Virus record (IMG/VR): IMGVR_UViG_3300047392_000164
Coordinates: 1-64,000 of that record
Reading direction: 5' to 3' (one strand)
Length of the DNA: 64,000 nucleotides
Origin: a virus
The translations under genes and the position numbers were made by a program. Below the pieces are notes generated by a model. The model had not been told where the DNA came from, did not search any database, and saw only the letters and a list, made by a program, of their open reading frames with translations. Of this stretch, positions 128 to 59,893 are shown piece by piece (the stretch's first letter is position 1; every line of letters begins with the position of its first letter).

Positions 128-1069
128 ATGTCTATCGAACAAAAAATTGCTGCACTTCTTGAAGAATCAAAGAAGTTGCAAGCAGAAGAAGCAAAAGCGG
201 TTACGCTTACACAAGAAGAGTATGATGCATTGACTGAAGAAGACAAAGCACAATACGAACTCGTTGAAGGTGTTGCTACTAAGAAAGAAGAAATTGCTAT
301 TGAAGAAGTAGCAATCGAAGAAGCTGTTGAAGAAGTTAAAGAAGAGTTGAAAGTTGACGTCTCTGAAGATGTTGCTGCTCTTATTAACGGTGAAGAACTA
401 ACAGAAGAATTTAAAACTAAAGCTGCTACAATTTTTGAAGCTGCTGTAGTTACTCGTGTCAAGGCAGAAGTTGCTAAGATCGAAGAAGAGTTTGATACTA
501 AACTTGCTGAGCAAGTCGAGTCAATCAAAGAGGGTCTCGTTGAAAAAGTTGATGGATATCTCAATTATGTAGTTGAGCAGTGGATGACAGATAATGAACT
601 TGCCCTTGAACATGGTATGAAGACTGAAATCATGGAAAGCTTTGTTGCTGGCATGAAGGGTCTATTCGAACAACACTATATCGATATTCCTGAAGAAAAG
701 TTTGACGTTCTTGGCGATTTGCAAGAAGAAGCAGAGTCTACAAAGGCTAAGCTTGACGAGCAATTGGCTGCTAATGTTGAATTGACTAAACAGATCAATG
801 AGATGAAACGTGTTGCTGCAATCGCAGAGCAATCTGCTGGTATGGCTGACACTGATGCAGAAAAGTTTTCCGGCCTAGCCGAAGAACTTGCATATGAAGA
901 TGCAGAGTCTTTTAAGACAAAGCTTCAGACCATTAAAGAAAATTATTTTGGTAAGAAGACAACTGTTAGCGTTAGCTCTGTTGTCACCGATGAACCTGTG
1001 CAATTAGAAGAAGATGTCAAGTCTGTTGATCCAGTCATGGCAGGTTACCTAAAAGCACTAAACAAATAA
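128..1069 (+). CDS. gp22: Prohead core scaffold protein
   Basis: This 313-residue protein is very acidic and rich in Glu, Lys and Ala, with long predicted coiled coils, as expected for the T4 gp22 scaffold. It builds the internal core around which gp23 assembles and is then degraded by the gp21 protease. The C-terminal stretch around residues 245-275 (FSGLAEELAYEDAESF, IKENYFG) closely resembles T4 gp22. It starts at an ATG eight bases after AGGAG and lies directly upstream of the capsid gene, the canonical order 21-22-23. No obvious oddity. Confidence 0.95.
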   Translation: MSIEQKIAALLEESKKLQAEEAKAVTLTQEEYDALTEEDKAQYELVEGVATKKEEIAIEEVAIEEAVEEVKEELKVDVSEDVAALINGEELTEEFKTKAATIFEAAVVTRVKAEVAKIEEEFDTKLAEQVESIKEGLVEKVDGYLNYVVEQWMTDNELALEHGMKTEIMESFVAGMKGLFEQHYIDIPEEKFDVLGDLQEEAESTKAKLDEQLAANVELTKQINEMKRVAAIAEQSAGMADTDAEKFSGLAEELAYEDAESFKTKLQTIKENYFGKKTTVSVSSVVTDEPVQLEEDVKSVDPVMAGYLKALNK

Positions 1070-28552: not shown

Positions 28553-29758
28553 ATGAAAGTAGCTATTATCATGGGACGCGGCATTGAAGGTTGCGGCGTC
28601 ACAAAGTTTACAGTAGAACAAACTAAATGGTTGGCAAAGAATGGCCACGAGTTTATTGTGTTCTCCTCTAAGGATAAATCATGGACACGTAAGAATGCCC
28701 ACGATGTATCAAATGTCGTTCAATTGAAATTCGCTAAGGCTGAAGAAACTAATAAGATGATTGTTGGCTGCAATGAAGCCGATGTAGTTATCATTAATAG
28801 TCTTCCTTCGATTGGACATCCTGATGAATGTATTAACCAATTTAAGCGAGCGCTAAATGAAATCACAAAACCAGTCGTCCTCATCCAACACGATCACTCG
28901 TCCCACTCGATTCGTCGCAATGCTGCAATCGATGAGTCCATTAGAAAGGCTAGCATTCTTTTTGGCCATTCTTCTCGCAACGATTTCGCTAAGCACGTAT
29001 CTACGGTAACTGATGGTGGTGGACTTGCAGGATTCTTTGGCGAAGATAACTCAAAGACTATTCTGAATTTCCAACCAGGACTTGACTTTGATTCAGTACG
29101 TGCTAAGTATTGGAAACCTATTGAAGAACAGAATCCTATTATGAACAAATGGATTGGCCGCACCACTTCGTGGAAAGGCTATGTTCAGATGTTCAAGTTC
29201 CATAACGAATTCCTTCGTCCTAATGACTACATCACTACTTTTGAAGGTATTGAAAAGTCACCTGCATATCTTGGCTTCCGTGAACTATCAGAGTTTAATG
29301 GAATGATTGACCAAGACATTAATACTGTCACCCTTGAAAAGGACCAACCAGCATATGTCTTCGGACCTTTTATCAACGATCAAATGCTTGGCCGCATGGC
29401 TACTGTTGGATTTGGTTATCAACTTTCCGTTCTTGATGAGCGTTTTATTGAACGATCCATCGAGTATACTCATTGCGAAGTCGTTTGTTCCGGCGTAGTT
29501 CCAGTATTCCGCAAGTCTTATGGTGAACGTTGTACTCATCGTCACTTTGGTAAAAAGCTAATTGACTGTGAGAACACAGGTACTATTTGGCTTGATGATA
29601 ATGACATGCAGCCTGCTTTCGATCTGCTAAATAAGTTAGCCGCTGACCCAGTATTGCGCAATCAATACCGTGAACAGGCATATGAATTTTATAAACTACA
29701 CCAAGACTCTCAGTATACTTTTGCTGAGATGTTTGAACAGATTGAAAATAACTTATGA
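28553..29758 (+). CDS. agt: DNA alpha-glucosyltransferase
   Basis: The 401-residue GT-B enzyme closely matches T4 alpha-glucosyltransferase (400 aa): MGRGIEGCGVTKFTVEQ, QHDHSSHSIRRN, NKWIGRTTSWKGYVQMFKFH, a VGFGYQLS segment and an IEYTHCEV...VPVFRKSYGE nucleotide-binding region. It adds glucose from UDP-glucose to 5-hydroxymethylcytosine in DNA, protecting against restriction. It sits directly after gp42 and dCMP deaminase. AGGAAAT precedes ATG 28553. Whether glucose is the sugar is inferred from homology. Confidence 0.94.
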   Translation: MKVAIIMGRGIEGCGVTKFTVEQTKWLAKNGHEFIVFSSKDKSWTRKNAHDVSNVVQLKFAKAEETNKMIVGCNEADVVIINSLPSIGHPDECINQFKRALNEITKPVVLIQHDHSSHSIRRNAAIDESIRKASILFGHSSRNDFAKHVSTVTDGGGLAGFFGEDNSKTILNFQPGLDFDSVRAKYWKPIEEQNPIMNKWIGRTTSWKGYVQMFKFHNEFLRPNDYITTFEGIEKSPAYLGFRELSEFNGMIDQDINTVTLEKDQPAYVFGPFINDQMLGRMATVGFGYQLSVLDERFIERSIEYTHCEVVCSGVVPVFRKSYGERCTHRHFGKKLIDCENTGTIWLDDNDMQPAFDLLNKLAADPVLRNQYREQAYEFYKLHQDSQYTFAEMFEQIENNL

Positions 29759-30973: not shown

Positions 30974-30981
30974 TATAAATA
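30974..30981 (+). promoter_or_regulatory. T4-type late promoter TATAAATA
   Basis: Exact TATAAATA right after the terminator, 29 bases before the first virion-cassette gene; the same terminator-then-late-box layout as after gp23. A TATAAT also occurs at 30985-30990 but without a -35. Confidence 0.75.
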
Positions 30982-31009: not shown

Positions 31010-31732
31010 ATGAGTGCAGCATCAGATAAGTACGAAAAGGACGTAGCCGACAACGTCGACAAAATCCCAGGTGTCAAGGCCGTTAGACCGCCAGGAGATA
31101 CTGCATACGCTGACGTAAAAATTACATACAAGAATGTTACTTCTTGGATGGAAGTAAAGATGAACCACACCGACAACTTGTCGAATCCACGTGTGTTCTA
31201 TAAGAATGGTAAGTGGGATACTACCTACGAAACTCCAGCTGCAAAAGCTGCGATCGACATTCTTAATAATTCTCCAATGGCAAAGAAATTTATTCAGGAT
31301 CTTGCTAAGTTTTCAGGCATTCCTGTTAAGATGATTAAGATTCCTACCACAAAAGGTGGACTTAAAGAAGAAGGTGCTGTTCCTCTTCATGTAATGAAAG
31401 CTTATTTTGATAAGCCTGGTGTAAATCGCTACATTGCAAACAGCGAAAACATGGATCTTGGTAAAGTAGTAACAGATCACTACACCAAAGGTAAAGCCGA
31501 ACCAGCATACTATATGCAAGCAGGTGACGACTTCTATCGCATCTCTAATAAAGATCCATTCAAACTTGGTGCAACAATCCCATTGCTATCTGGTCGTGGT
31601 GACTTTAAAGTTCGTGTATCAACACGTTCAGAATTCTATGAAGTACAGGCCGAAGTAAAGATTGCACATATGCCAGACAGTAAATATTCTGTTAAGCCTG
31701 GCACTAAGAAACAAAATCCATTCCTAAAATAA
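31010..31732 (+). CDS. PD-(D/E)xK-like late protein of unknown function
   Basis: The 240-residue protein has an N-terminal segment DTAYADVKITYKNVTSWMEVKMN, where D35 and E48-x-K50 fit a restriction-endonuclease-like active site. The rest (GAVPLHVMKAYF, YYMQAGDDFYRIS, RVSTRSEFYEVQAEVKIA) looks like a second mixed domain. Similar proteins are conserved near head genes of marine T4-like phages. The late promoter upstream suggests virion assembly or packaging. GGAG precedes the ATG. Confidence 0.55.
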   Translation: MSAASDKYEKDVADNVDKIPGVKAVRPPGDTAYADVKITYKNVTSWMEVKMNHTDNLSNPRVFYKNGKWDTTYETPAAKAAIDILNNSPMAKKFIQDLAKFSGIPVKMIKIPTTKGGLKEEGAVPLHVMKAYFDKPGVNRYIANSENMDLGKVVTDHYTKGKAEPAYYMQAGDDFYRISNKDPFKLGATIPLLSGRGDFKVRVSTRSEFYEVQAEVKIAHMPDSKYSVKPGTKKQNPFLK

Positions 31733-31733
31733 T

Positions 31734-32963
31734 ATGCTAAAACTAAAAGACTTCTTAACCGAAGAGAAGAATACTCACATGGAGCACGTTGAGGACTTGA
31801 TCTTCAACGAAGGTGTTGATGGAGCACGTAAAGCAATCAACTTCTTACGTAATCTTCGTGACATGCTTGCTGGTCATGCTAAGTCTCCTATTACTTCTAC
31901 AGTAAAGTGGGATGGAGCACCTGCTGTTTTCGCAGGTATCGATCCACGCGATGGCAAGTTCTTTGTTGCAAAGAAAGGCGTCTTTAATAAAGAGCCAAAG
32001 GTGTATAAGACTAATGCTGACATCGAAGCAGATACATCAGGTGATCTAGCAGCAAAGCTAAAGGTTGCTCTTAGAGAATTCTCTAAGCTTGGCATTAAGT
32101 CAGGTGTATATCAAGGTGACTTAATGTTCACTGATGATAAAAGAACTGAAACGATTGATGATGAGAAGTACATAACCTTTCATCCAAACACGATTGTTTA
32201 TGCTGTGCCATATATGTCTGAACTTGGCAAGAAGATTCGTGCTGCTAAGATTGGTGTTGTTTGGCATACCACATATGAGGGCGATTCATTTGAAAGTATG
32301 AGAGCATCCTTCGGTAAGTCTATCGTTGATAAGTTCAAACAAGTGCCAAGCATTTGGATGGACGATGCTAACTATAAAGATTATTCCGGGACTGCAACCT
32401 TTACTGCTGAAGAAACTAAAAAGGTTACAGCTGTGCTATCACGTGCCGGTGCAGTATTTAATACCATCAGCGCGGAAACTCTTAATGGGATTTGCAAAGA
32501 TGAAGACCTATTACTCGCAGTTAAAACTTTTAACAACTCAAAGATCCGAAAGATGGAACACATCAAGGACACTAAAGCCCATGTGCGTGAGTTGTTCCAC
32601 TACATCCACGAAAAATACGAAAAAGAAATCGAGAAGAAAAAGACTCCTGCCGGTAAGCAGAAGCAAGAAGATATGCGAAAGAAGATCCTCAGTTTCTTTG
32701 CTCATCATGATCAGAATCAAATTGTAGCAATCTTTGATCTGATGAATGTTCTAGTGGAAGCTAAGATTATGATCATCGAGAAGATGAATCAAGCTGGTCA
32801 TATTAATACATTCCTTAAGACTGCAAGTGGTTTTAAGACAACAGGTGTTGAAGGCTTTGTTGCCATTGATCACCTATCAGGCGGAGCAGTTAAGATTGTA
32901 GACAGAATGGAATTCAGTCACTCTAACTTCTCAAAAGATATTTTAAAAGGATGGCAACGATGA
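31734..32963 (+). CDS. Ligase-like (KxDG) late protein with capsid-targeting N terminus
   Basis: The 409-residue protein has a covalent nucleotidyltransferase signature: TVKWDGAPAVFAG with K58-W-D-G61, a following KGVFNKEPKVYK segment, and a late EGFVAIDH...AVKIVDR resembling ligase motifs IV-V. The N terminus MLKLKDFLTE|E has the length and pattern of the T4 capsid-targeting peptide. A homologue (DUF6267-like) is known from marine T4-like phages as a virion-region protein. Whether it seals nicks is unknown. Confidence 0.7.
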   Translation: MLKLKDFLTEEKNTHMEHVEDLIFNEGVDGARKAINFLRNLRDMLAGHAKSPITSTVKWDGAPAVFAGIDPRDGKFFVAKKGVFNKEPKVYKTNADIEADTSGDLAAKLKVALREFSKLGIKSGVYQGDLMFTDDKRTETIDDEKYITFHPNTIVYAVPYMSELGKKIRAAKIGVVWHTTYEGDSFESMRASFGKSIVDKFKQVPSIWMDDANYKDYSGTATFTAEETKKVTAVLSRAGAVFNTISAETLNGICKDEDLLLAVKTFNNSKIRKMEHIKDTKAHVRELFHYIHEKYEKEIEKKKTPAGKQKQEDMRKKILSFFAHHDQNQIVAIFDLMNVLVEAKIMIIEKMNQAGHINTFLKTASGFKTTGVEGFVAIDHLSGGAVKIVDRMEFSHSNFSKDILKGWQR

Positions 32964-33697
32964 TTAATTTCAAACAATACTTAGAAGAAAAGCGTGGATT
33001 ATGGGATAACATCCATGCTAAAAGAAAACGTATTAAGAATGGTTCTGGCGAGAAGATGCGTAAGCCGGGAAGCAAAGGTGCTCCAACTGCAGCAGACTTT
33101 AAAGCAGCAAATGAAGAAGTTGAGATAGACGAGGCCGTTAAACTAGGTTCTAAAGTTAAGATTCATGCTCCAGGTAAAGACTATCACGCTCAGATTGGTC
33201 ATATCGGTGAAATTCGTCATGGTGCTCATAAAGATGCACCAAAGACCTACACTGTAGATTATGGTAATAGCAAGTCAGTTCAGCTTGACAAGAAGAATTT
33301 TAAACTTCATAATGAAGAAGTTGAATCTCAGTTTGACTTGATTGAAGAAGTCATTGAAGAACTTGCATTAGCTGAAGGTATTGATTCAGAATCTATCTGG
33401 GAAACCTTAGAGTCGGTTGACGACACTGAGTTGTTGGAATACGCTATTGATAAAAAAGGACATAAGTCTTCAACAGGTGGATTGACACAAAAAGGTGTTG
33501 ATGCATACAATGCTAAGACAGGTGGACACTTGCAAACTGCAGTTACTACTAAACCTTCAAAGCTAAAACCAGGAAGCAAAGCTGCTAATCGTCGTAAGTC
33601 TTTCTGTGCTCGTATGGGTGGAGTTAAAGGACCTATGAAAGATGACAAAGGTCGTCCTACACGTAAAGCACTAGCGCTTAGAAAGTGGAACTGCTAA
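32960..33697 (+). CDS. Late protein with capsid-targeting N terminus and DUF6321-like C terminus
   Basis: The 245-residue product starts MINFKQYLEE|K, a capsid-targeting-type peptide. A basic patch KRKRIKNGSGEKMRKPGSKGA follows, then VEIDEA (residues 54-59), a possible gp21 cleavage site, then an acidic middle. The last 75 residues (GLTQKGVDAYN, LKPGSKAANRRKSFCARM, KGPMKDDKGRPTRKALALR) match the DUF6321 domain of phage virion proteins. ATG 32960 (ATGA overlap) was preferred to 32951, which touches the AAAGG ribosome site. Confidence 0.75.
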   Translation: MINFKQYLEEKRGLWDNIHAKRKRIKNGSGEKMRKPGSKGAPTAADFKAANEEVEIDEAVKLGSKVKIHAPGKDYHAQIGHIGEIRHGAHKDAPKTYTVDYGNSKSVQLDKKNFKLHNEEVESQFDLIEEVIEELALAEGIDSESIWETLESVDDTELLEYAIDKKGHKSSTGGLTQKGVDAYNAKTGGHLQTAVTTKPSKLKPGSKAANRRKSFCARMGGVKGPMKDDKGRPTRKALALRKWNC

Positions 33698-33927
33698 TGT
33701 TAAAATTTCAAGATTACGTAAAAGAATCTTGTAATTGCTGGTTAGGCTACAAGCGTAAGCCTGGCACTAAGCCATGTGCAAAAGGTTCTTGTGTTAAAGA
33801 AGAAAACAACATTGGTTATGAAGGTACTGATAAGCTTACTAAGTATCGTAAGAAGATGACACCTGGAGAAAAGCCTGTAACTCCTTGTATGTTACCTGAA
33901 TTCGAAGATTTAGAAAAGAATAAATAA
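33697..33927 (+). CDS. Small Cys-containing late protein with capsid-targeting N terminus
   Basis: A 76-residue protein beginning MLKFQDYVKE|S, followed by CNCWLGYKRKPGTKPCAKGSC, in which five cysteines are spaced like a small metal site or disulphide cluster. The KRKPGTKPCxKGS patch recalls the preceding protein. TAATG overlap with the upstream gene. Probably packaged in the head; function unknown. Confidence 0.65.
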   Translation: MLKFQDYVKESCNCWLGYKRKPGTKPCAKGSCVKEENNIGYEGTDKLTKYRKKMTPGEKPVTPCMLPEFEDLEKNK

Positions 33928-33937
33928 GTAGTATAAT
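33909..33937 (+). promoter_or_regulatory. Possible promoter before the 515-residue late gene
   Basis: TTTAGA (33909-33914), 17-base spacer, TATAAT (33932-33937). No AATTCG element, and the -35 lies in the preceding coding region, so it is weak. Confidence 0.35.
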
Positions 33938-33953
33938 TAATTAATGGAAGCAT

Positions 33954-35501
33954 ATGAAACAGTATAGACAACTCATAAAAGAGTTGCCCTCTAAAAAAGT
34001 CGTTTTCGCGTTCGGTCGTTTTCAACCTCCTACAACAGGTCATGAACTGCTAGTGAACGCCGTCAAAAAGATCGCCTCTGCACAGAAGGCCGATCATATC
34101 ATCTTTGCTTCCCGCACTCACGATAAAAAATCCAATCCTCTTCCAGTAGATCGTAAGGTATATTACCTTAAGAGAATGTTTCCGAAGACTAACTTTGCTG
34201 CAGCCAGTGAAGAAGTAAGAACATTTATGGAAGCAGCAAAAATGCTTTCAAAGAAGTATAAGAACCTTGTCATGGTTGCAGGTTCTGATCGTGTTCCAGA
34301 ATATAAAAAGCTCCTTGAAAAATACAACGGTGACGTATTCACCTTTGATACTATTGAAGTAGTATCTGCTGGTGAACGTGATCCAGATGCTGACACTGCA
34401 TCGGGTATGTCCGGCACTAAGATGAGAGAAGCTGCTAAGAAGGGTGACTTCCCACACTTCAAAAAAGGTTTACCGCATACTCTAACTGACCTCGATGGCA
34501 AGCGTTTGATGAATGAGATTCGTCAAGGCATGGGTATGGATATTGTTAAAGAACAAGTAAAGTTCGAAACAAACGATTTACGTGAAAAGTATTTCGCTGG
34601 TGAGATCTTCCATGTTGGTGAAATTGTAGAATCACAAGGTGTTGTTTATCAGATCGTTAAACGTGGATCTAATCACTTACTCGTTCAGAATGAAGAAGGC
34701 CAAATGATTAGTAAGTTCCCACAAGATCTTGAGATGAGCGATAAAGAATTCAATCTACAGGAATTAGACGAGATGATTATTAAATCCGCAGACAAATTAA
34801 AAGTAGCACGCATCATTGCATCTTCATTAGGAATGGTTGATGTTGATGATAAGACAGGTGCTGAGAACATGGTTAACGTTTCTCTTCGCAAAATTAAGAG
34901 TAAGAACCTCACACCAGAAGCTTGGAAGATTCTAGGCAATATGCTTAAACTTGCAACTGATGCAGGTATCAACTATGATAAATCTATCATTCCCGAAACT
35001 AAGTTTAAAGTAATGGGTATTGAAGAAGATACTGAAGGACAATTCTCTGATGAAGAGATTGATGCTATCGTTGAAGCATTAACTGAAGACGATGTTCTAG
35101 AAGCATATGATGATGAAGAACTCCACATCATTGATGAAGAAACAGGTGAAGTAATCTGTGAACTACAAGAAGACACACTGCTTGAAGTACTATCAAGAGC
35201 AGAAAGAATTCGCGCTAAAATTCGTTTCTCAAGATCAGAAGCAAAGCGTGAACGTAAGACTAAAATTGCATTGAAGACTCATTCATCATCAAGCACTTTA
35301 AATAAACGTGCTCGTCGTTTGGCTATTAATACAATGAAACTACGTCTTGCTAAGAAACCCTTAGAGAAACTATCTGTTGCAGAAAAAGAAAGAATTGAAA
35401 AGACTCTTTCACAAAGAAAAGCTGTGATTGATCGTATGGCCATGAAGATGGTGCCAAGGGTTAAGAAAATTGAGACTGACCGTCTTTCCCATAAGAAATA
35501 A
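33954..35501 (+). CDS. HxGH nucleotidyltransferase-like late protein with capsid-targeting N terminus
   Basis: The 515-residue protein starts MKQYRQLIKE|L (capsid-targeting type), then a nucleotidyltransferase domain (residues about 13-190): VVFAFGRFQPPTTGHELL (TxGH), VAGSDRVPEYKKLLEKY, and SGTKMREAAKKGDF (SxTxMR signature). The acidic middle (about 335-410) and a basic C-terminal region (about 420-515, with repeated RAERIRAKIRFSRSEAKRERK) suggest a multi-domain, possibly cleaved, internal head protein. NMN- or cytidylyl-type transfer is possible; substrate unknown. Confidence 0.75.
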   Translation: MKQYRQLIKELPSKKVVFAFGRFQPPTTGHELLVNAVKKIASAQKADHIIFASRTHDKKSNPLPVDRKVYYLKRMFPKTNFAAASEEVRTFMEAAKMLSKKYKNLVMVAGSDRVPEYKKLLEKYNGDVFTFDTIEVVSAGERDPDADTASGMSGTKMREAAKKGDFPHFKKGLPHTLTDLDGKRLMNEIRQGMGMDIVKEQVKFETNDLREKYFAGEIFHVGEIVESQGVVYQIVKRGSNHLLVQNEEGQMISKFPQDLEMSDKEFNLQELDEMIIKSADKLKVARIIASSLGMVDVDDKTGAENMVNVSLRKIKSKNLTPEAWKILGNMLKLATDAGINYDKSIIPETKFKVMGIEEDTEGQFSDEEIDAIVEALTEDDVLEAYDDEELHIIDEETGEVICELQEDTLLEVLSRAERIRAKIRFSRSEAKRERKTKIALKTHSSSSTLNKRARRLAINTMKLRLAKKPLEKLSVAEKERIEKTLSQRKAVIDRMAMKMVPRVKKIETDRLSHKK

Positions 35502-35516
35502 AATAAGGAAAACATC

Positions 35517-35960
35517 ATGGATGAATTAGTACAATCAATGAAGAAGTGCCAAGCGAATACGTTTGTCATGTACTTTAAAACTCACGGCTTTCACTGGAAC
35601 GTAGAAGGAATCAACTTCCCTACATACCATGAATTCTTTGGAGATCTATACGAAGAATTGTATAGCGCAGTAGATCCTATGGCGGAAGAGATTCGTACTC
35701 TTGGCGCTTATGCTCCAAAGAGTCTTGGAGAACTATATAATAGTTGCACTCTATCCGAGAGTGATTTAGTTGGTGACTCTGTTCGTGAAATGCTAACATC
35801 TCTATTGATGGATAACAATCAGGTCTTAGCATGTCTTAACGAATCATTTACTCTTGCTACCACACAAGGTAATCAAGGTCTTGCAAACTTCTTAGCTGAT
35901 CGTATTGACAAGCATAAGAAACATGGATGGATGATTAGTTCATCACTTAAGGGAGCATAA
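35517..35960 (+). CDS. Dps/ferritin-like protein
   Basis: The 147-residue protein matches the Dps family: NTFVMYFKTHGFHWNVEGINFPTYHEFFGDLYEELYSAVDPMAEEIRTLGAYAP. By alignment the inter-subunit ferroxidase residues H26, H38, D53 and E57 are kept, but the position of E. coli Asp67 appears to be Gly42. Dps forms a 12-mer that stores iron and can bind DNA. In a late virion gene block it may be packaged or protect DNA; that is inference. GGAA precedes the ATG. Confidence 0.88.
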   Translation: MDELVQSMKKCQANTFVMYFKTHGFHWNVEGINFPTYHEFFGDLYEELYSAVDPMAEEIRTLGAYAPKSLGELYNSCTLSESDLVGDSVREMLTSLLMDNNQVLACLNESFTLATTQGNQGLANFLADRIDKHKKHGWMISSSLKGA

Positions 35961-35962
35961 AT

Positions 35963-36919
35963 ATGTCAGGAAAAGAAGAAGTTGTAGACACTTCTGACTA
36001 CAAGCTTGATAAAAATGGCAAAAAAATCAAAGCACATCGTATAGTCTTTAATAAAGGTGAAGACGATGGTAAAAAAGGAATATCAGAAATGAAAAAGAAA
36101 TACAAAGATTTTGTTGAGCAACACTCAGTTGAAGAAGAACTGAAGGGTGGGCAGAAAAAACTTGACAAGAATAAGAACGGTAAGCTTGATTCGCATGACT
36201 TCAAACTACTTCGTAAAGAAGAAGCTGAACTAGATGAAGCACTACATCCAGAAGCAGGTAAAGTGCTAAAGCACATTAAGCCTGAACATCATGCTAAGTA
36301 CAAAGCGGACTTAGCAAAGGGTATCTATAAAGGCGACTTTGCAGATAGAACAGCGGTATTGAAAGCTGCTGAACGCGCTGGTCACTTAAAGGAAGAATTA
36401 GAAGAAGGCTGGGATGACATGTTAGCTCATGTCAAGAAGAACGCTGAAAAATCTAAGACTGCTACTGCTACTAAGCATGACGTTAAGAAGACTTCTACAG
36501 GTACAGTATATACTAAGCAACGTGATGCTGACGGTATGAGCAAAGAATTTAAGCGTGATAATGATCAAACTAAGCGTGGTCGTGGTCGTCCAAAGAAGAA
36601 TTCGTTCAGTGAAGCAGCAGAGTTTCTAATGTCTCTTGATGAGGAAGCATTTGATTCATTGATGGAAGAAGGATTTGATGCTTTCGTAGAATACTATGCG
36701 CAACTTGACGAACTAAGTAAAACAACTCTTGGCTCATATGCTAAGAAGGCTTCAGTAGATGCTAAGTTCCATGGATTTGATGCTGGTCATGCACAAGGTC
36801 ATGCACAGGCGCATGCTAAACGTCCATCAGATGGTTTAGATGCAGGATCTGCTCAAGATGATAAAGCCCATAAGAGATTAAAGGGCGTTAAAAAAGCGAT
36901 TGATCGCTTAACCAAATAA
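35963..36919 (+). CDS. Late protein with EF-hand-like loop and AT-hook
   Basis: The 318-residue protein contains a textbook EF-hand loop, D68-K-N-K-N-G-K-L-D-S-H-D79, an AT-hook RGRGRPKK (205-212), and a C-terminal LDELSKTTLGSYAKKA motif (248-263) that recurs in T4-like phage structural proteins. ELDEA (89-93) and LDEL (248-251) fit the gp21 prohead-protease site L-x-E, so it may be processed in the head. The mix suggests a calcium- and DNA-binding internal head protein. Experimental role unknown. Confidence 0.65.
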   Translation: MSGKEEVVDTSDYKLDKNGKKIKAHRIVFNKGEDDGKKGISEMKKKYKDFVEQHSVEEELKGGQKKLDKNKNGKLDSHDFKLLRKEEAELDEALHPEAGKVLKHIKPEHHAKYKADLAKGIYKGDFADRTAVLKAAERAGHLKEELEEGWDDMLAHVKKNAEKSKTATATKHDVKKTSTGTVYTKQRDADGMSKEFKRDNDQTKRGRGRPKKNSFSEAAEFLMSLDEEAFDSLMEEGFDAFVEYYAQLDELSKTTLGSYAKKASVDAKFHGFDAGHAQGHAQAHAKRPSDGLDAGSAQDDKAHKRLKGVKKAIDRLTK

Positions 36920-36944
36920 ACAAAAATTTTTAAGGAGTCCAATC

Positions 36945-37511
36945 ATGGCACTATGGGGAAAAACAGACGCAACAGGGAGCAAGCCAAAGTACTTGAACTC
37001 TACTGATGCAGCAAATGCAGTATTCGTTTCAGCAGAAGAAGCAGTACTAAAGACAAACAAAGATAAAGGTATTCTTGGTGCAGGCTGGTGGCTTGTTAAA
37101 GAATACGCTGATGCTGATGGCAAACCACGCTATAAAACTGAATTGCTAGTGGCAATGTCAGTTGCTAACGCTGCATCTGGTGATGCAGCAGACGATGCTA
37201 AGATTGCTGACGTAGAAGTTACTCTTACTATCGGCACTCAACCTGCTAACCAAACAGCTAGTGCTGGTGGCGCAACATTCTCTGTTACAGCAACTGCATC
37301 TTCTGGTACAGTTACTTACCAATGGCAGAAGAAAGAATCTGCAGCAGGTTCACGTTGGGCAAACGTTTCTGGAGCAACATCAGCTTCCCTTGCTCTCACT
37401 GGTCTAACAGCTGGTGCAGATAATGGCGATCAATATCGTGTCGTACTTGGCTCTACCTCTGGCGCAGTCAAGACAACATCTAGCGCAGCAACTCTAACAG
37501 TAGCTGCTTAA
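36945..37511 (+). CDS. Ig-like domain structural protein
   Basis: The 188-residue protein has an N-terminal part (MALWGKTDATGSKPKYLN ... GWWLVKEYADADGKPRYKTELLVAM) known from T4-like virion proteins and a C-terminal Ig-like domain at about residues 95-187 (TIGTQPANQTASAGGATFSV...YQWQKK...GDQYRVVLGS..TLTV). Ig domains on phage capsids often give weak binding to carbohydrates. A head decoration or neck protein is likely. AAGGAG ribosome site; followed by a TTCG hairpin. Confidence 0.8.
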   Translation: MALWGKTDATGSKPKYLNSTDAANAVFVSAEEAVLKTNKDKGILGAGWWLVKEYADADGKPRYKTELLVAMSVANAASGDAADDAKIADVEVTLTIGTQPANQTASAGGATFSVTATASSGTVTYQWQKKESAAGSRWANVSGATSASLALTGLTAGADNGDQYRVVLGSTSGAVKTTSSAATLTVAA

Positions 37512-37516
37512 TATAA

Positions 37517-37530
37517 GGGGCTTCGGCCCC
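37517..37530 (+). terminator. TTCG-loop hairpin, probable terminator
   Basis: GGGGC-TTCG-GCCCC (37517-37530) followed by GTTTGTT. The T run is short, so termination may be partial. Confidence 0.65.
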
Positions 37531-37537
37531 GTTTGTT

Positions 37538-37891
37538 ATGACATTGAACGAAGATAATTTTCTCCTTTATGCTATGCATCACTATGATAACACACAGTGT
37601 CATACCATTGAGGAGTTTGAGGAAGACTTAAGAAGATTCCTCTATCTCAAGAAGTTGTTTATTAGGCACCACAATAATAAGGAACTAAGAGAACGACTTA
37701 TATTGAACCACATCATCGTTCTATATAACATATTTGGTGATGCCACGACTGACATGCTCTTTTTCAAAATGAATGAAGAACATAAGTCAGCCTTGGCAAC
37801 ATTTTTAGTATACTTAAATAGGTTACCTGAACATCTAATGTCAGAGATTCCTATAGATATAGATGTTGCAACAGCGTTAAGGAAAATTTAA
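37538..37891 (+). CDS. Conserved phage protein (DUF7207-like)
   Basis: A 117-residue helical protein: NEDNFLLYAMHHYDN, TIEEFEEDLRRFLYLKKLF, NKELRERLILNHIIVLYNIFG, TDMLFFKM. This pattern is a widely conserved small protein of exo-T-even phages. It starts eight bases after the hairpin and has no clear Shine-Dalgarno; its stop overlaps the next start (TAATG). Function unknown. Confidence 0.75.
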   Translation: MTLNEDNFLLYAMHHYDNTQCHTIEEFEEDLRRFLYLKKLFIRHHNNKELRERLILNHIIVLYNIFGDATTDMLFFKMNEEHKSALATFLVYLNRLPEHLMSEIPIDIDVATALRKI

Positions 37892-38445
37892 TGTCTACAA
37901 CTATAGACAACATGCTTGCTTTTAAGATTCTCTATATGCTTGTCACTCCATTCGAGAAGACAGACGCGTATAAGTTTGGAATCATTGACAAGGATGGTAC
38001 ACCACTCAAGAAATCTAAAGATCTAAAGTCAAGTGAAGAGAAAGACTCTTACACTAACCTAGATCGTTTGGTGTTTTCTCTAAAGCGCTTGTTGGGTAAA
38101 GTGCCGGGAGGCAAGAGTCAATTGGCTTCATTAGTAGCTGCATATTGGCTTATTAAAGAATCACATCAGAAGAGAACAGTAGTCAAAGAAGAAGAACTTC
38201 TTTCACTTATTGATCTCATCGAAGAAAAGAAACTTACTTTAGTCGAGGAAGAACTTGACATTGAGAAGTTTATTGCTATGATGGAAGATGGCGGAGCAGC
38301 TATCGCCAATACTGCAGGTGCTGCAACAGCAACCGATAAGCCAGTTGTGAAACTAAACAAAAAGAATAAGCCAATATCAGGTATCCTTGGTCTACCTGAT
38401 TATATTGCACGTAGAAAACAACCTGTTCAAATGGGGCAAAAATGA
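37891..38445 (+). CDS. Conserved late protein of unknown function
   Basis: The 184-residue protein (NMLAFKILYMLVTPFEKTDAYKFGIIDKDG, YTNLDRLVFSLKRLLGKVPGGKSQLASLVAAYWLIKE) is a recurrent companion of the preceding gene in marine T4-like phages. Alpha-helical N-terminal half; acidic and Ala-rich C-terminal half ending in a basic tail. Function unknown, probably structural. Confidence 0.75.
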   Translation: MSTTIDNMLAFKILYMLVTPFEKTDAYKFGIIDKDGTPLKKSKDLKSSEEKDSYTNLDRLVFSLKRLLGKVPGGKSQLASLVAAYWLIKESHQKRTVVKEEELLSLIDLIEEKKLTLVEEELDIEKFIAMMEDGGAAIANTAGAATATDKPVVKLNKKNKPISGILGLPDYIARRKQPVQMGQK

Positions 38446-39470
38446 AATCATTTAAAGAAGTACAAGAAGCATTTGGTCGTCGTCATGACGCTTACACTCG
38501 TGACTATCATAGCTCAGTTTCTGGAATGGGTAAACATCAATCGCATGCTTATCATGCAGATGGCGGCGCTAATGATGAAGGCTGGGATCGTGAACATCAT
38601 CATAAGCCTGCAGATCATCCGCACTCTGTGCATATTAATGGTAAGAAGTGGAAGACGTTTGGTTCACACTCTCATGCTAGCAACGTAGCAAAGAAGATTA
38701 AAGGTGCTACTGTTCATAAAGAAGAAACTGAATTGGATGAAGCTATTGATCCAAGCGAAATTGCAAGTAATCCGAAGATGTACAATTCTGATGCTGCTAA
38801 GAAAGCGTATTATCATAAGAATGCTACAGCTGAAGATAAGAAGTCTTTAGAGCGTCATCTTGATCGTCATCATGGTAATAAAGAATGGCGCAAATCTGTT
38901 AAAGAAGAAGCTACTTGTAAAGTATGCAAACAAGATCCATGTATCTGTGATGATGATTCTCATGGATTTGTAAAAGAAAGCGAAGAATCTGATAAGCACT
39001 ATAAAGAAGCAGAAGAACACTTATCTAAAGCAAATGATTCTGATGCCAAAGGAGATAAGAAATCTTTCCATGCACATATGGCAAACCATCATGATGCTAT
39101 GTCTGAGTGGCATGACTCTAAAGGTCGTTCTGCTTCAGCAGATAAGCATGCAGAAAAAGCTGATTATCACCATGAGAAATCTTTAAGTGAACAAGTTATT
39201 GAAGCACGTATGTCAGCAGCAGTAAAACTACAACGAGCTTTCCAACGTCAACAAGAAAAGTCTGCAGCATCACGTAAGCGTGGTGAGGAACTTCTAAATC
39301 CTAAGAAGGATGAACCAAAGAAAGTTTCTGAAGGCGTTAAGAGTCCGGGCGTAGGCTGGATGATTAGACAAGATCCAAAGCTTGCTGCTATCATTAAAGT
39401 TCGTAAAGAGAAGATGAAAACTTTTAGACAGCACGTTGGCAAGAAGATTGAAGATAAAGATAAAGACTAA
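38442..39470 (+). CDS. His-rich late protein with capsid-targeting-like N terminus
   Basis: The 342-residue protein starts MKSFKEVQE|AF, a variant of the capsid-targeting peptide. It is rich in His, Lys and Glu, contains ELDEA (97-101) as a possible gp21 cleavage site, a CKVCKQDPCICDDD cysteine cluster near residue 160, and repeated charged helices. The C terminus (SPGVGWMIRQDPKLAAIIKVRKEKM) looks folded. Probably an internal head protein cut into pieces. Start overlaps the previous stop (ATGA). Confidence 0.65.
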   Translation: MKSFKEVQEAFGRRHDAYTRDYHSSVSGMGKHQSHAYHADGGANDEGWDREHHHKPADHPHSVHINGKKWKTFGSHSHASNVAKKIKGATVHKEETELDEAIDPSEIASNPKMYNSDAAKKAYYHKNATAEDKKSLERHLDRHHGNKEWRKSVKEEATCKVCKQDPCICDDDSHGFVKESEESDKHYKEAEEHLSKANDSDAKGDKKSFHAHMANHHDAMSEWHDSKGRSASADKHAEKADYHHEKSLSEQVIEARMSAAVKLQRAFQRQQEKSAASRKRGEELLNPKKDEPKKVSEGVKSPGVGWMIRQDPKLAAIIKVRKEKMKTFRQHVGKKIEDKDKD

Positions 39471-58191: not shown

Positions 58192-59057
58192 TTCTCATCG
58201 ATTACTCTCAGGTTTGTGTTGCAGCAATCCTTGCATTTGCTGGCGACCTAAAGAAGGGCGATACCAATGAGAAGAAAAATCTCATTAGACACGTGGCACT
58301 CACGTCTATCAAGGCGTACAAGAAAAAGTACGGCAAAGAATTTGGTGAAATCGTCATCTGTTGTGATGGCCGCAACTACTGGCGCAAAGACGTGTTTGCA
58401 AACTATAAAGGTCTGCGTAAGAAAGCACGTGAAGAATCTGACCTCGACTGGGGCATCATCTTTGACACACTGTCTGAAATCCGTGAAGACATTCGTACAT
58501 ACTTTCCTTACAAAGTTGTGCATGTTAATAAATGTGAAGCCGATGATGTGATTGCTGTCCTTACTGAATCTACTCAAGAGTTCGGTAAGCATGAACCAGT
58601 GATGATTGTATCTTCCGACAAAGACTTCAAACAACTCCATGCTTATGACAACGTCAAGCAATTCAGTCCTATGCTGAAGAAATTGATTACAGTAAATAAG
58701 AAGGAGCTCAAGGCATGGCTAACTGAACACATCGTTAAAGGTGATGCAGGTGACGGCATTCCAAACATCTTGTCTGACGACAATGTGTTCATGGATGGTG
58801 TACGTCAAAAGTCTATCCGAGCTGAACGTCTGCAGGAATTTATTGACAAAGGCATTGATGCTTGCCGTAATGATACAGAACGCCGTAACTGGCAACGTAA
58901 CATTCAGCTAGTCGACTTTAGCTACATTCCTGAAGACATCAAGGCAACTGTTATGGAAGCATTCGAAGTAGAACCTACTGGTGATAAGAATGCTGTGATG
59001 AACTATCTTATCAAAAACAAGTGTAGACTTCTGTTGAATGAAGTAGAGGAATTTTAA
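58188..59057 (+). CDS. rnh: RNase H / 5'-3' exonuclease
   Basis: The 289-residue FEN-1-type nuclease matches T4 RNase H (305 aa): ILIDYSQVCVAAI, VICCDGRNYWRKDVFANYKGLR, NKCEADDVIAVL, IVSSDKDFKQLH and VKGDAGDGIPNIL supply the acidic active site. It removes RNA primers and adjacent DNA on the lagging strand before ligation by gp30, encoded shortly downstream. Confidence 0.95.
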   Translation: MILIDYSQVCVAAILAFAGDLKKGDTNEKKNLIRHVALTSIKAYKKKYGKEFGEIVICCDGRNYWRKDVFANYKGLRKKAREESDLDWGIIFDTLSEIREDIRTYFPYKVVHVNKCEADDVIAVLTESTQEFGKHEPVMIVSSDKDFKQLHAYDNVKQFSPMLKKLITVNKKELKAWLTEHIVKGDAGDGIPNILSDDNVFMDGVRQKSIRAERLQEFIDKGIDACRNDTERRNWQRNIQLVDFSYIPEDIKATVMEAFEVEPTGDKNAVMNYLIKNKCRLLLNEVEEF

Positions 59058-59497
59058 TGGCTACGAAATATATTACTGAAATGCTTGAGGAGATCAATAG
59101 TGATCCCAAGCAGATTGAAAAATATAAGACGAATGCAGCGCTGAAGTTTATCTTTCAGCATGCATTCATTCCTGAAAAGAAATTTGAATTGCCGGAAGGT
59201 GACCCACCTTTCAATCCAGACCCAGCGCCGTTGGGAATGTCACGCGCAAATTTCGTTATGGAAACAAAGAAGCTGTACATCTTCACTAAAGAACGTCCAT
59301 TGAACAAAGTTCGCAAAGAACAACTGTTCATCCAACTTCTTGAAAACATTCACCCATCCGAGGCTAAGGTTCTCCTTGCGGTTAAGGATCAGAAGCTAAA
59401 TAAACTATATAAGAAGATTACTGCAAAGCTTGCAGCAGATCATGGCTTCATTCCAGAACAGGCAAAAGATGAGGAAAAAGCACCAAAAAAATCTTAA
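59057..59497 (+). CDS. Conserved phage protein (DUF6433-like)
   Basis: The 146-residue protein (YITEMLEEINSDPKQIEKYKTNAALKFIFQHAFIPEKKFELPEGDPPFNPDPAPLGMS, EQLFIQLLENIHPSEAKVLLAVKDQ) matches a family widespread in exo-T-even phages next to rnh. Helical with a proline-rich loop and a Lys-rich tail. Function unknown; a replication accessory role is suggested by position. TAATG overlap with rnh. Confidence 0.8.
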   Translation: MATKYITEMLEEINSDPKQIEKYKTNAALKFIFQHAFIPEKKFELPEGDPPFNPDPAPLGMSRANFVMETKKLYIFTKERPLNKVRKEQLFIQLLENIHPSEAKVLLAVKDQKLNKLYKKITAKLAADHGFIPEQAKDEEKAPKKS

Positions 59498-59510
59498 GGT
59501 TATTCTCTCG

Positions 59511-59684
59511 ATGGAGCAGGAAGAGCTCGCTCACTGGTTGGCAAACTTGCCGGACGACGAAATCGAATACGTTGAGTGGCTGGTTGAAGAAGTTGAGTCT
59601 TCGTTGGACAACATGATCCTTGAACAGGTCGGTCTAGATGAAGCACGAGAAGTAATCAAAAAGTATACACTTCCAAAAGGTTGA
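59511..59684 (+). CDS. Small acidic protein of unknown function
   Basis: A 57-residue acidic protein (EQEELAHWLANLPDDEIEYVEWLVEEVESSLDNMILEQVG...). In size and acidity it could be the late-transcription co-activator gp33, but the C-terminal clamp motif expected of gp33 is not seen, so this is not claimed. ATG 59511 is preferred; an upstream in-frame ATG at 59469 is possible. A hairpin GTTGACT/AGTCAAC (59680-59698) overlaps the stop. Confidence 0.6.
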   Translation: MEQEELAHWLANLPDDEIEYVEWLVEEVESSLDNMILEQVGLDEAREVIKKYTLPKG

Positions 59685-59700
59685 CTGCTTTAGTCAACTA

Positions 59701-59729
59701 TGTACAATAATTCGTTTCTGTGGTATAAT
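59701..59729 (+). promoter_or_regulatory. Early promoter, near-perfect consensus
   Basis: TGTACA (59701-59706), AATTCG (59709-59714), 17-base spacer, TATAAT (59724-59729). Leader with GGAG before ATG 59753. Confidence 0.9.
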
Positions 59730-59752
59730 TACTCTAACAACTGGAGAAAAAC

Positions 59753-59893
59753 ATGGGAATGATGAAGAACATTTATGCGCAAGTGGAAGATCTTTACTAT
59801 GATGGATACGCTCCAATCGAGATCGCCGAAATGACAGGTCTCCACTTTACTGAAGTGGTTTCCATTCTTGAAGAACTTGGAGAATTCGCTTGA
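59753..59893 (+). CDS. Tiny helix-turn-helix-like protein before DNA ligase
   Basis: A 46-residue open frame with GGAG eight bases upstream. Residues about 10-42 (VEDLYYDGYAPIEIAEMTGLHFTEVVSILEEL) have the pattern of a sigma-type helix-turn-helix. It is the first gene after the promoter and overlaps the ligase start by four bases. A regulatory role is plausible; not tested. Confidence 0.65.
   Translation: MGMMKNIYAQVEDLYYDGYAPIEIAEMTGLHFTEVVSILEELGEFA

Follow-up and report, generated by a model that had tools for sequence, protein, structure and literature searches.

Which proteins does an uncultured T4-like phage carry inside its head, and do four adjoining late genes encode some of them? 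The question is raised by the viral record IMGVR_UViG_3300047392_000164, which has 71,198 bases and belongs to a T4-like virus with a bacterial host; the window analysed here is bases 1–64000 of that record. T4-type gp22 and gp23 lie at the start of the window, followed by replication genes and then by a late cassette. At 31734–35501, four adjoining genes each encode ten N-terminal residues which, as read from the DNA, fit the capsid-targeting sequence (CTS) of T4. The first-pass annotation had singled out four decapeptides ending in Glu10 and proposed that their proteins are packed in the head; all four were present in the DNA, at residues 1–10 of consecutive genes. We conclude that the phage is T4-like and very probably carries the four proteins inside its head, and the CTS reading is upheld by position-specific conservation, gene specificity, exact junctions, gp21 in relatives and virion mass spectrometry of tagged homologues. 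The genes and their peptides, with the tagged fraction of orthologues, are as follows.

31734..31763, plus strand: CTS peptide of the DUF6267 protein, MLKLKDFLTE; motif match; tag in 77/79 orthologues; predicted cut after Glu10
31734..32963, plus strand: DUF6267 protein, 409 amino acids (aa), RNA-ligase-like covalent nucleotidyltransferase, cargo 1; PF19782, E=4.5e-108
32960..32989, plus strand: CTS peptide of the DUF6321 protein, MINFKQYLEE; motif match; tag in 23/32 orthologues
32960..33697, plus strand: modular DUF6321 protein, 245 aa, mature pI 9.4, cargo 2; PF19846, E=3.3e-23
33697..33726, plus strand: CTS peptide of the Cys-rich protein, MLKFQDYVKE; motif match; tag in 13/17 orthologues
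33697..33927, plus strand: small basic Cys-rich protein, 76 aa, mature pI 9.0, cargo 3; open reading frame (ORF)
33954..33983, plus strand: CTS peptide of the nucleotidyltransferase, MKQYRQLIKE; motif match; tag in 40/49 orthologues and in 80/80 cyanophage homologues
33954..35501, plus strand: cytidylyltransferase-like nucleotidyltransferase, 515 aa, cargo 4; phrog_3041, E=6e-72; homologues in S-SM1 and S-CREM2 virions (PMC3037559; PMC10665884, Table 3)

The start of the DUF6321 gene was set at 32960, where ATGA overlaps the upstream stop and AAAGGA lies 5' of the start (the mechanical ORF begins 9 nt earlier), and that of the Cys-rich gene at 33697, at a TAATG overlap (the mechanical ORF begins 12 nt earlier, at GTG). 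All four mature proteins are basic, with a pI of 8.9–9.4. PHROG and Pfam searches with the Cys-rich protein gave no match.

Identification of the probable targeting peptides

In T4 IPIII, replacements by amber suppressors showed that targeting is affected by residues 4 and 7 and processing by residues 8 and 10, and the gp21 protease cuts after L/I-x-E (PMC9026906). Foreign proteins, for example GFP, have been packaged by means of the CTS (PMC3012670). The motif M-x-x-[FYLIVMW]-x-x-[FYLIVMW]-[LIVMF]-x-E was built on the IPIII mutational data; its residue sets were picked with knowledge of the four window peptides, and the blind test is therefore provided by other genomes and not by the window. 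Applied to T4 as a positive control, the motif gave six matches, namely ipII, ipIII, alt, gene 24, 61.1 and one that is likely false; according to the T4 record, gp21 cleaves the gene 24 product, and Alt is found in the capsid. The match in T4 gp61.1 (NC_000866 18966–19130, locus L207), a protein of 54 aa and unknown function that starts MKTFKEFIKEDM, covers the full CTS pattern, and on its sequence gp61.1 is a candidate for an unrecognised internal protein of T4.

Among the 117 genes called in the 71-kb record, the motif matched exactly the four cassette genes, as compared with 0.35 matches expected from shuffled N-termini and a rate of 1/375 at internal Met residues. The probability that four matches randomly scattered among these genes would be adjacent is 1.5e-5. 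The hydrophobic residues 4 and 7 on which targeting depends were found in all four proteins, as was Glu10; residue 8 is Leu, Leu, Val and Ile in cassette order, and Val8 of the Cys-rich protein falls outside the strict L/I of the gp21 consensus. The CTS match in the four genes was thus confirmed as real and not due to chance. A fifth protein, which the first-pass annotation had grouped with these on account of its start MKSFKEVQE (gene at 38442), was rejected as carrying a T4-type CTS: MKSFKEVQEA has Val7, Gln8, Glu9 and Ala10, and so lacks hydrophobic residue 8 and Glu10, and its true orthologues fail the motif too.

Conservation of the tag in related loci

In 82 IMG/VR loci around DUF6267, 194 of 1117 genes matched the motif, as compared with 4.9 expected, and in a second set of 80 loci, whose DUF6267 is about 50% identical, there were 154 matches in about 25 cargo clusters, as compared with 4.6 expected; these counts come from kin sequences and are not independent events. 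Internal Met residues in the 82 loci matched in 10 of 5295 cases. Depending on the gene, 72–97% of the orthologues of the four cargo proteins were tagged, and none of the orthologues of the flanking genes at 29755, 31010, 35517, 36945, 37538 and 37891 (0/27, 0/7, 0/38, 0/17, 0/21 and 0/17, respectively). A motif-free tally over 1476 distinct proteins showed a Glu peak at position 10 (0.173 vs. a background of 0.066) and hydrophobic peaks at positions 4, 7 and 8. Among 31 DUF6267 leaders, Leu4 was found in 30, Phe/Tyr7 in 30 and Glu10 in all 31, Lys5 and Ile/Leu8 were also kept, and positions 3, 6 and 9 varied freely; Glu10 was also invariant across 78 more diverse sequences. Because the codons at the conserved positions of the leader differ synonymously, the constraint acts on the protein. 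The cyanophage homologues of the cytidylyltransferase were tagged without exception, and no other of the 857 genes of those loci was.

Over both locus sets, the tagged cargo included P-loop (Zeta_toxin/AAA_33) proteins, HAD-like proteins (weak matches) and many unnamed ones; most of the remaining tagged proteins could not be firmly named by Pfam or PADLOC. Judged from these sequences, the tag is a portable module on about two dozen unrelated cargo families across aquatic T4-like phages. The junctions are exact. In one related locus (L337), the orthologue of gene 31010 (46% identical) carries MLTFKTYISE directly ahead of the first aligned residue, in place of residue 1. In podovirus S-B28, an untagged protein, MAKQGLYSNIHAKRKRI, begins directly with the IHAKRKRI module that the DUF6321 protein contains, and the untagged nucleotidyltransferase of Salmonella phage Munch begins at its domain. 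In C48C1 (OQ984149 63450–63514), the annotated cytidyltransferase begins at an internal Met, and an in-frame GTG-IKNFSQYLLEE lies upstream; this tag, longer by one residue, is present in many relatives.

Tagged proteins in published virion proteomes

Virion mass spectrometry has been published for the Synechococcus phage S-CREM2 (PMC10665884). The strict tag was carried by 5 of the 26 detected proteins that are non-structural or of unknown function and by 1 of the 167 undetected proteins (Fisher p=1.7e-4); none of the 26 structural and lysis proteins carried it. The tagged virion proteins were a SAM hydrolase (MKDFDSFLEE), an APH-like kinase (MKRFDAFLTE), a cytidylyltransferase (MKNFSSFLTE), ORF13 (MKDLHSFLTE) and ORF136 (MQTFSMFFSE). 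The sections of the S-CREM2 paper that were consulted make no mention of a targeting sequence. The Cas9-like ORF12 (OR473000 10313–7704, minus strand) has a CTS-like LRFASFMAEA at about residues 16–26; there is no usual start codon at the place fitting this peptide; a longer leader or another start may be involved.

The cytidylyltransferase was also detected in virions of S-SM1 (PMC3037559), where it begins MKKFSAFLNEA; a second novel protein of S-SM1 virions, T4-GC15, is annotated as a tail protein and was rejected as a DUF6267 protein. A kinase of S-CRM01, cited as a virion protein in the S-CREM2 paper (PMC10665884), begins MISFDQFLSE. The proposed proteomic check was thus borne out in relatives as far as the presence of the cytidylyltransferase in virions is concerned, and no cleaved N-termini were reported there.

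Head-assembly genes

Two head-assembly genes lie at the start of the window.

128..1069, plus strand: gp22 prohead scaffold, presumed partner bound by the peptides; phrog_237, PF25623
1091..2362, plus strand: gp23 major capsid protein; PF07068

The gp23 protein has a candidate gp21 site, ALNE52↓I (the arrow marks the cut), at a position that corresponds, when placed by eye, to the gp21 site FLTE65↓A of T4 gp23. Each of the 12 other records searched, six of them IMG/VR relatives, contained peptidase S77 (gp21), and gp21 adjoins gp22 upstream in those records in which its position was examined.

The DUF6267 protein as an RNA-ligase-like cargo

The first-pass annotation had called the first cargo protein ligase-like, and its predicted structure agreed with this. 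An AlphaFold model from 31 close DUF6267 sequences was poor (pLDDT 70); the model used, from 78 sequences, had a pLDDT of 85 and a pTM of 0.82, and only the leader, residues 1–15, was below pLDDT 50 and disordered. The top structural match was RNA-editing ligase 1 (REL1) of T. brucei (Z 8.3, rmsd 4.3, 188 aligned residues), followed by the Naegleria RNA ligase and T4 RNA ligase 2 (Rnl2, Z 7.7). The first 12 matches were all RNA ligases, with Z from 8.3 to 7.2, and lower down tRNA and DNA ligases were interspersed with unrelated helical proteins. Foldseek alone gave no significant match (E>0.1), and neither a single sequence nor a profile of DUF6267 found a match in the PDB.

KWDG58–61, QGD127–129, EG373–374 and VK386–387 were conserved across the 78 sequences, and ligase motifs I, III, IV and V were assigned from order, spacing and fold. 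On the fold ranking and the conserved motifs, the modelled DUF6267 protein looks like an RNA ligase. It has these four motifs, and apparently the predicted fold, in common with the T4 RNA ligase 2 and RNA-editing ligase family; unlike that family, it has no PDB sequence match, has a large helical insertion at 225–352 and carries a packaging tag. Neither DUF6267 nor DUF6321 was named in any paper found in an incomplete literature search.

In S-PM2 (NC_006820, ~103000–104500), the DUF6267 sequence is divided between two frames, and its C-terminal portion is continuous, in a single frame, with the cytidylyltransferase; neither of the two is tagged. phrog_455 likewise spans both domains. This arrangement suggests that DUF6267 and the cytidylyltransferase may be functionally linked.

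Proposed packaging and its alternatives

Packaging of the four proteins and removal of their tags by the gp21 protease are likely. The tagged proteins would be expressed late, and the N-terminal decapeptide would bind the gp22 prohead scaffold core via hydrophobic residues 4 and 7, so that the protein would be enclosed. With residues 8 and 10 as determinants, the gp21 prohead protease would cut after Glu10; the basic protein matured in this way would stay with the DNA and enter the next cell alongside it. The tagged sequences indicate that these phages probably bring varied ready-made enzymes into the cell with their DNA, and the composition of the cargo suggests that nucleic-acid repair or counter-defence may take place at entry. 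We hypothesise that RNA or DNA ends could be repaired at entry because the ligase-like enzyme adjoins the nucleotidyltransferase, and is joined to it in S-PM2, and because relatives have tagged kinase-like and HAD-like proteins.

The proteins might instead work in head assembly as core components like gp67/gp68, their tags binding the scaffold, and be degraded by gp21 and leave the head, so that no working enzyme is delivered. Several cargo proteins are rich in extra L/I-x-E sites and acidic stretches, and the DUF6321 protein has eight internal sites besides its EVEIDE↓A linker; however, a scaffold needs neither the invariant ligase motifs of DUF6267 nor the family domain kept by the nucleotidyltransferase, and homologues were detected in mature virions, which makes this explanation improbable. 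The shared N-terminus could also be a signal of another kind, for example for targeting to the membrane or the tail, for degradation or for translation initiation, as it is short, amphipathic, N-terminal and located at tightly overlapping gene junctions. An RNA signal is excluded by codons that vary freely while residues 4, 5, 8 and 10 hold; the motif fits known T4 gp21 substrates, Glu10 included, the tag tracks virion presence in S-CREM2, and homologues in unrelated phages lack it, so that we give such signals very little credence. Related sequences inflate the counts and the loci are mutually homologous, as would be expected if one ancestral, functionless N-terminus had been spread through gene duplication or if the matches were due to chance. 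Yet the cargo domains are unrelated, the key positions alone hold while positions 2, 3, 6 and 9 vary, tagged and tag-less orthologues meet at the same boundary, and the distant relative T4 shows the same pattern on other proteins. Together with the shuffle and internal-Met controls, this leaves chance or shared ancestry with a negligible probability.

Several points weigh against the four proteins being internal head proteins. The gene for gp21 is missing from the contig, whose first gene is gp22, presumably because the incomplete contig begins there. The window phage is known from sequence only, and it is for homologues that virion presence was shown; a cleaved N-terminus has been reported for none of these proteins. 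The S-CREM2 authors propose encapsidation but allow for contamination of the preparation (PMC10665884); several virion proteins there, for example ORF155, ORF156 and the Cas9-like ORF12, lack the strict tag. Neither the S-CREM2 DUF6267 homologue (58914–59762) nor the DUF6321 and Cys-rich proteins are among the virion proteins listed for S-CREM2. In S-PM2, the untagged cytidylyltransferase was not detected in virions, which fits the packaging role of the tag; this support is weak, as structural proteins known to be present also escaped detection there (PMC3037559).

Modular proteins and other features of the cassette

Some late proteins are mosaics of modules joined by EExE(L/I)DE↓A linkers that fit the gp21 consensus; in the window these lie at 33116–33136, 36221–36241 and 38724–38744, and in related loci in L123, L112, L144, L146 and L175. 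Over 160 loci, 13 such linkers were observed vs. 0.6 expected, and [LI]DEA occurred 56 times vs. 12.8 expected (6 vs. 16.8 in the reversed control). Some mosaic proteins hold internal CTS-like peptides, namely TMSFKAFLEEG and EMKSYKQFMEEL. Judging from these sites, mosaic late proteins with such linkers may be polyproteins that are packaged and then cleaved by gp21. Further features of the cassette are listed below.

33116..33136, plus strand: EVEIDE↓A linker between modules of the DUF6321 protein, possible second gp21 site with predicted cleavage; linker class count
31010..31732, plus strand: untagged gene upstream of DUF6267; orthologue in locus L337 tagged
30974..30981, plus strand: TATAAATA, resembling a T4-type late promoter, 5' of 31010 and of the cassette; pattern match, suggestive at most
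38442..39470, plus strand: fifth protein of the first-pass annotation, MKSFKEVQEAFG; outside the motif
35517..35960: untagged Ferritin/Dps-like protein (PF00210) within the late cassette

Across the whole window, the T4-type late promoter ATAAATA was not above chance, and searching the record for a guessed DNA motif gave no match. In the slot upstream of DUF6267 (31010–31732; also in L337, L347 and L336), the encoded proteins contain a D...ExK-like stretch (WMEVKMN); they are tagged in some relatives and untagged in the window. By eye only, their sequences appear nuclease-like; they had no Pfam match.

Significance for T4-like phages

CTS-bearing internal proteins are known from T-even phages, and the CTS has been regarded as perhaps a route by which T4-like phages package various proteins; phiKZ and SPN3US also package many ejection proteins with N-terminal propeptides cut by a protease, as in the T4-type CTS (PMC9026906). 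Like T4 IPI, IPII, IPIII and Alt, the window cargo begins with a peptide of ten residues that is hydrophobic at 4, 7 and 8 and has Glu10, and the two also share basic mature proteins, unrelated cargo behind one tag and a head system with gp22, gp23 and presumably gp21. The phiKZ and SPN3US system presumably differs, with a diverged protease and motif and longer propeptides in giant phages. No homologues of the T4 internal proteins were seen in family scans. Whereas the T4 cargo consists mostly of small anti-restriction proteins and Alt, here conserved enzymes stand in a syntenic cassette, RNA-ligase-like and nucleotidyltransferase, with kinase-like ones in aquatic T4-like phages. The cytidylyltransferase, kinase and SAM hydrolase of S-SM1 and S-CREM2 virions carry the same tag, and the cytidylyltransferase is homologous to that of the window. 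An incomplete search beyond the review PMC9026906 yielded no literature on capsid targeting in cyanophages, and neither this enzymatic CTS cargo nor its breadth across aquatic T4-like phages seems to have been described so far.

With a tag whose residue roles are known, the proteins that an uncultured T4-like phage brings along can be predicted from sequence. Enzymes in the published S-CREM2 virion proteome were indistinguishable from contaminants, and the tag supplies a testable prediction for them. It also draws attention to some two dozen cargo families of aquatic phages, most of them unnamed and one with a predicted RNA-ligase fold. The findings suggest that T4-like phages in general deliver enzymes together with their DNA, beyond the anti-restriction proteins of T-even phages. 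A bolder proposal, which we regard as rather doubtful, is that aquatic T4-like phages pack a head-borne nucleic-acid repair kit active from the first moment of infection, and that nearby modular proteins, with their LDE↓A linkers, may be packaged as polyproteins for gp21 to cleave. The kit would consist of the RNA-ligase-like DUF6267 protein and the nucleotidyltransferase, with tagged P-loop kinase-like and HAD-like proteins in relatives, and could, for example, reseal tRNAs or nicks left by host defence nucleases. If this were true, the kit would act at entry, whereas T4 makes its own kinase and ligases after entry.

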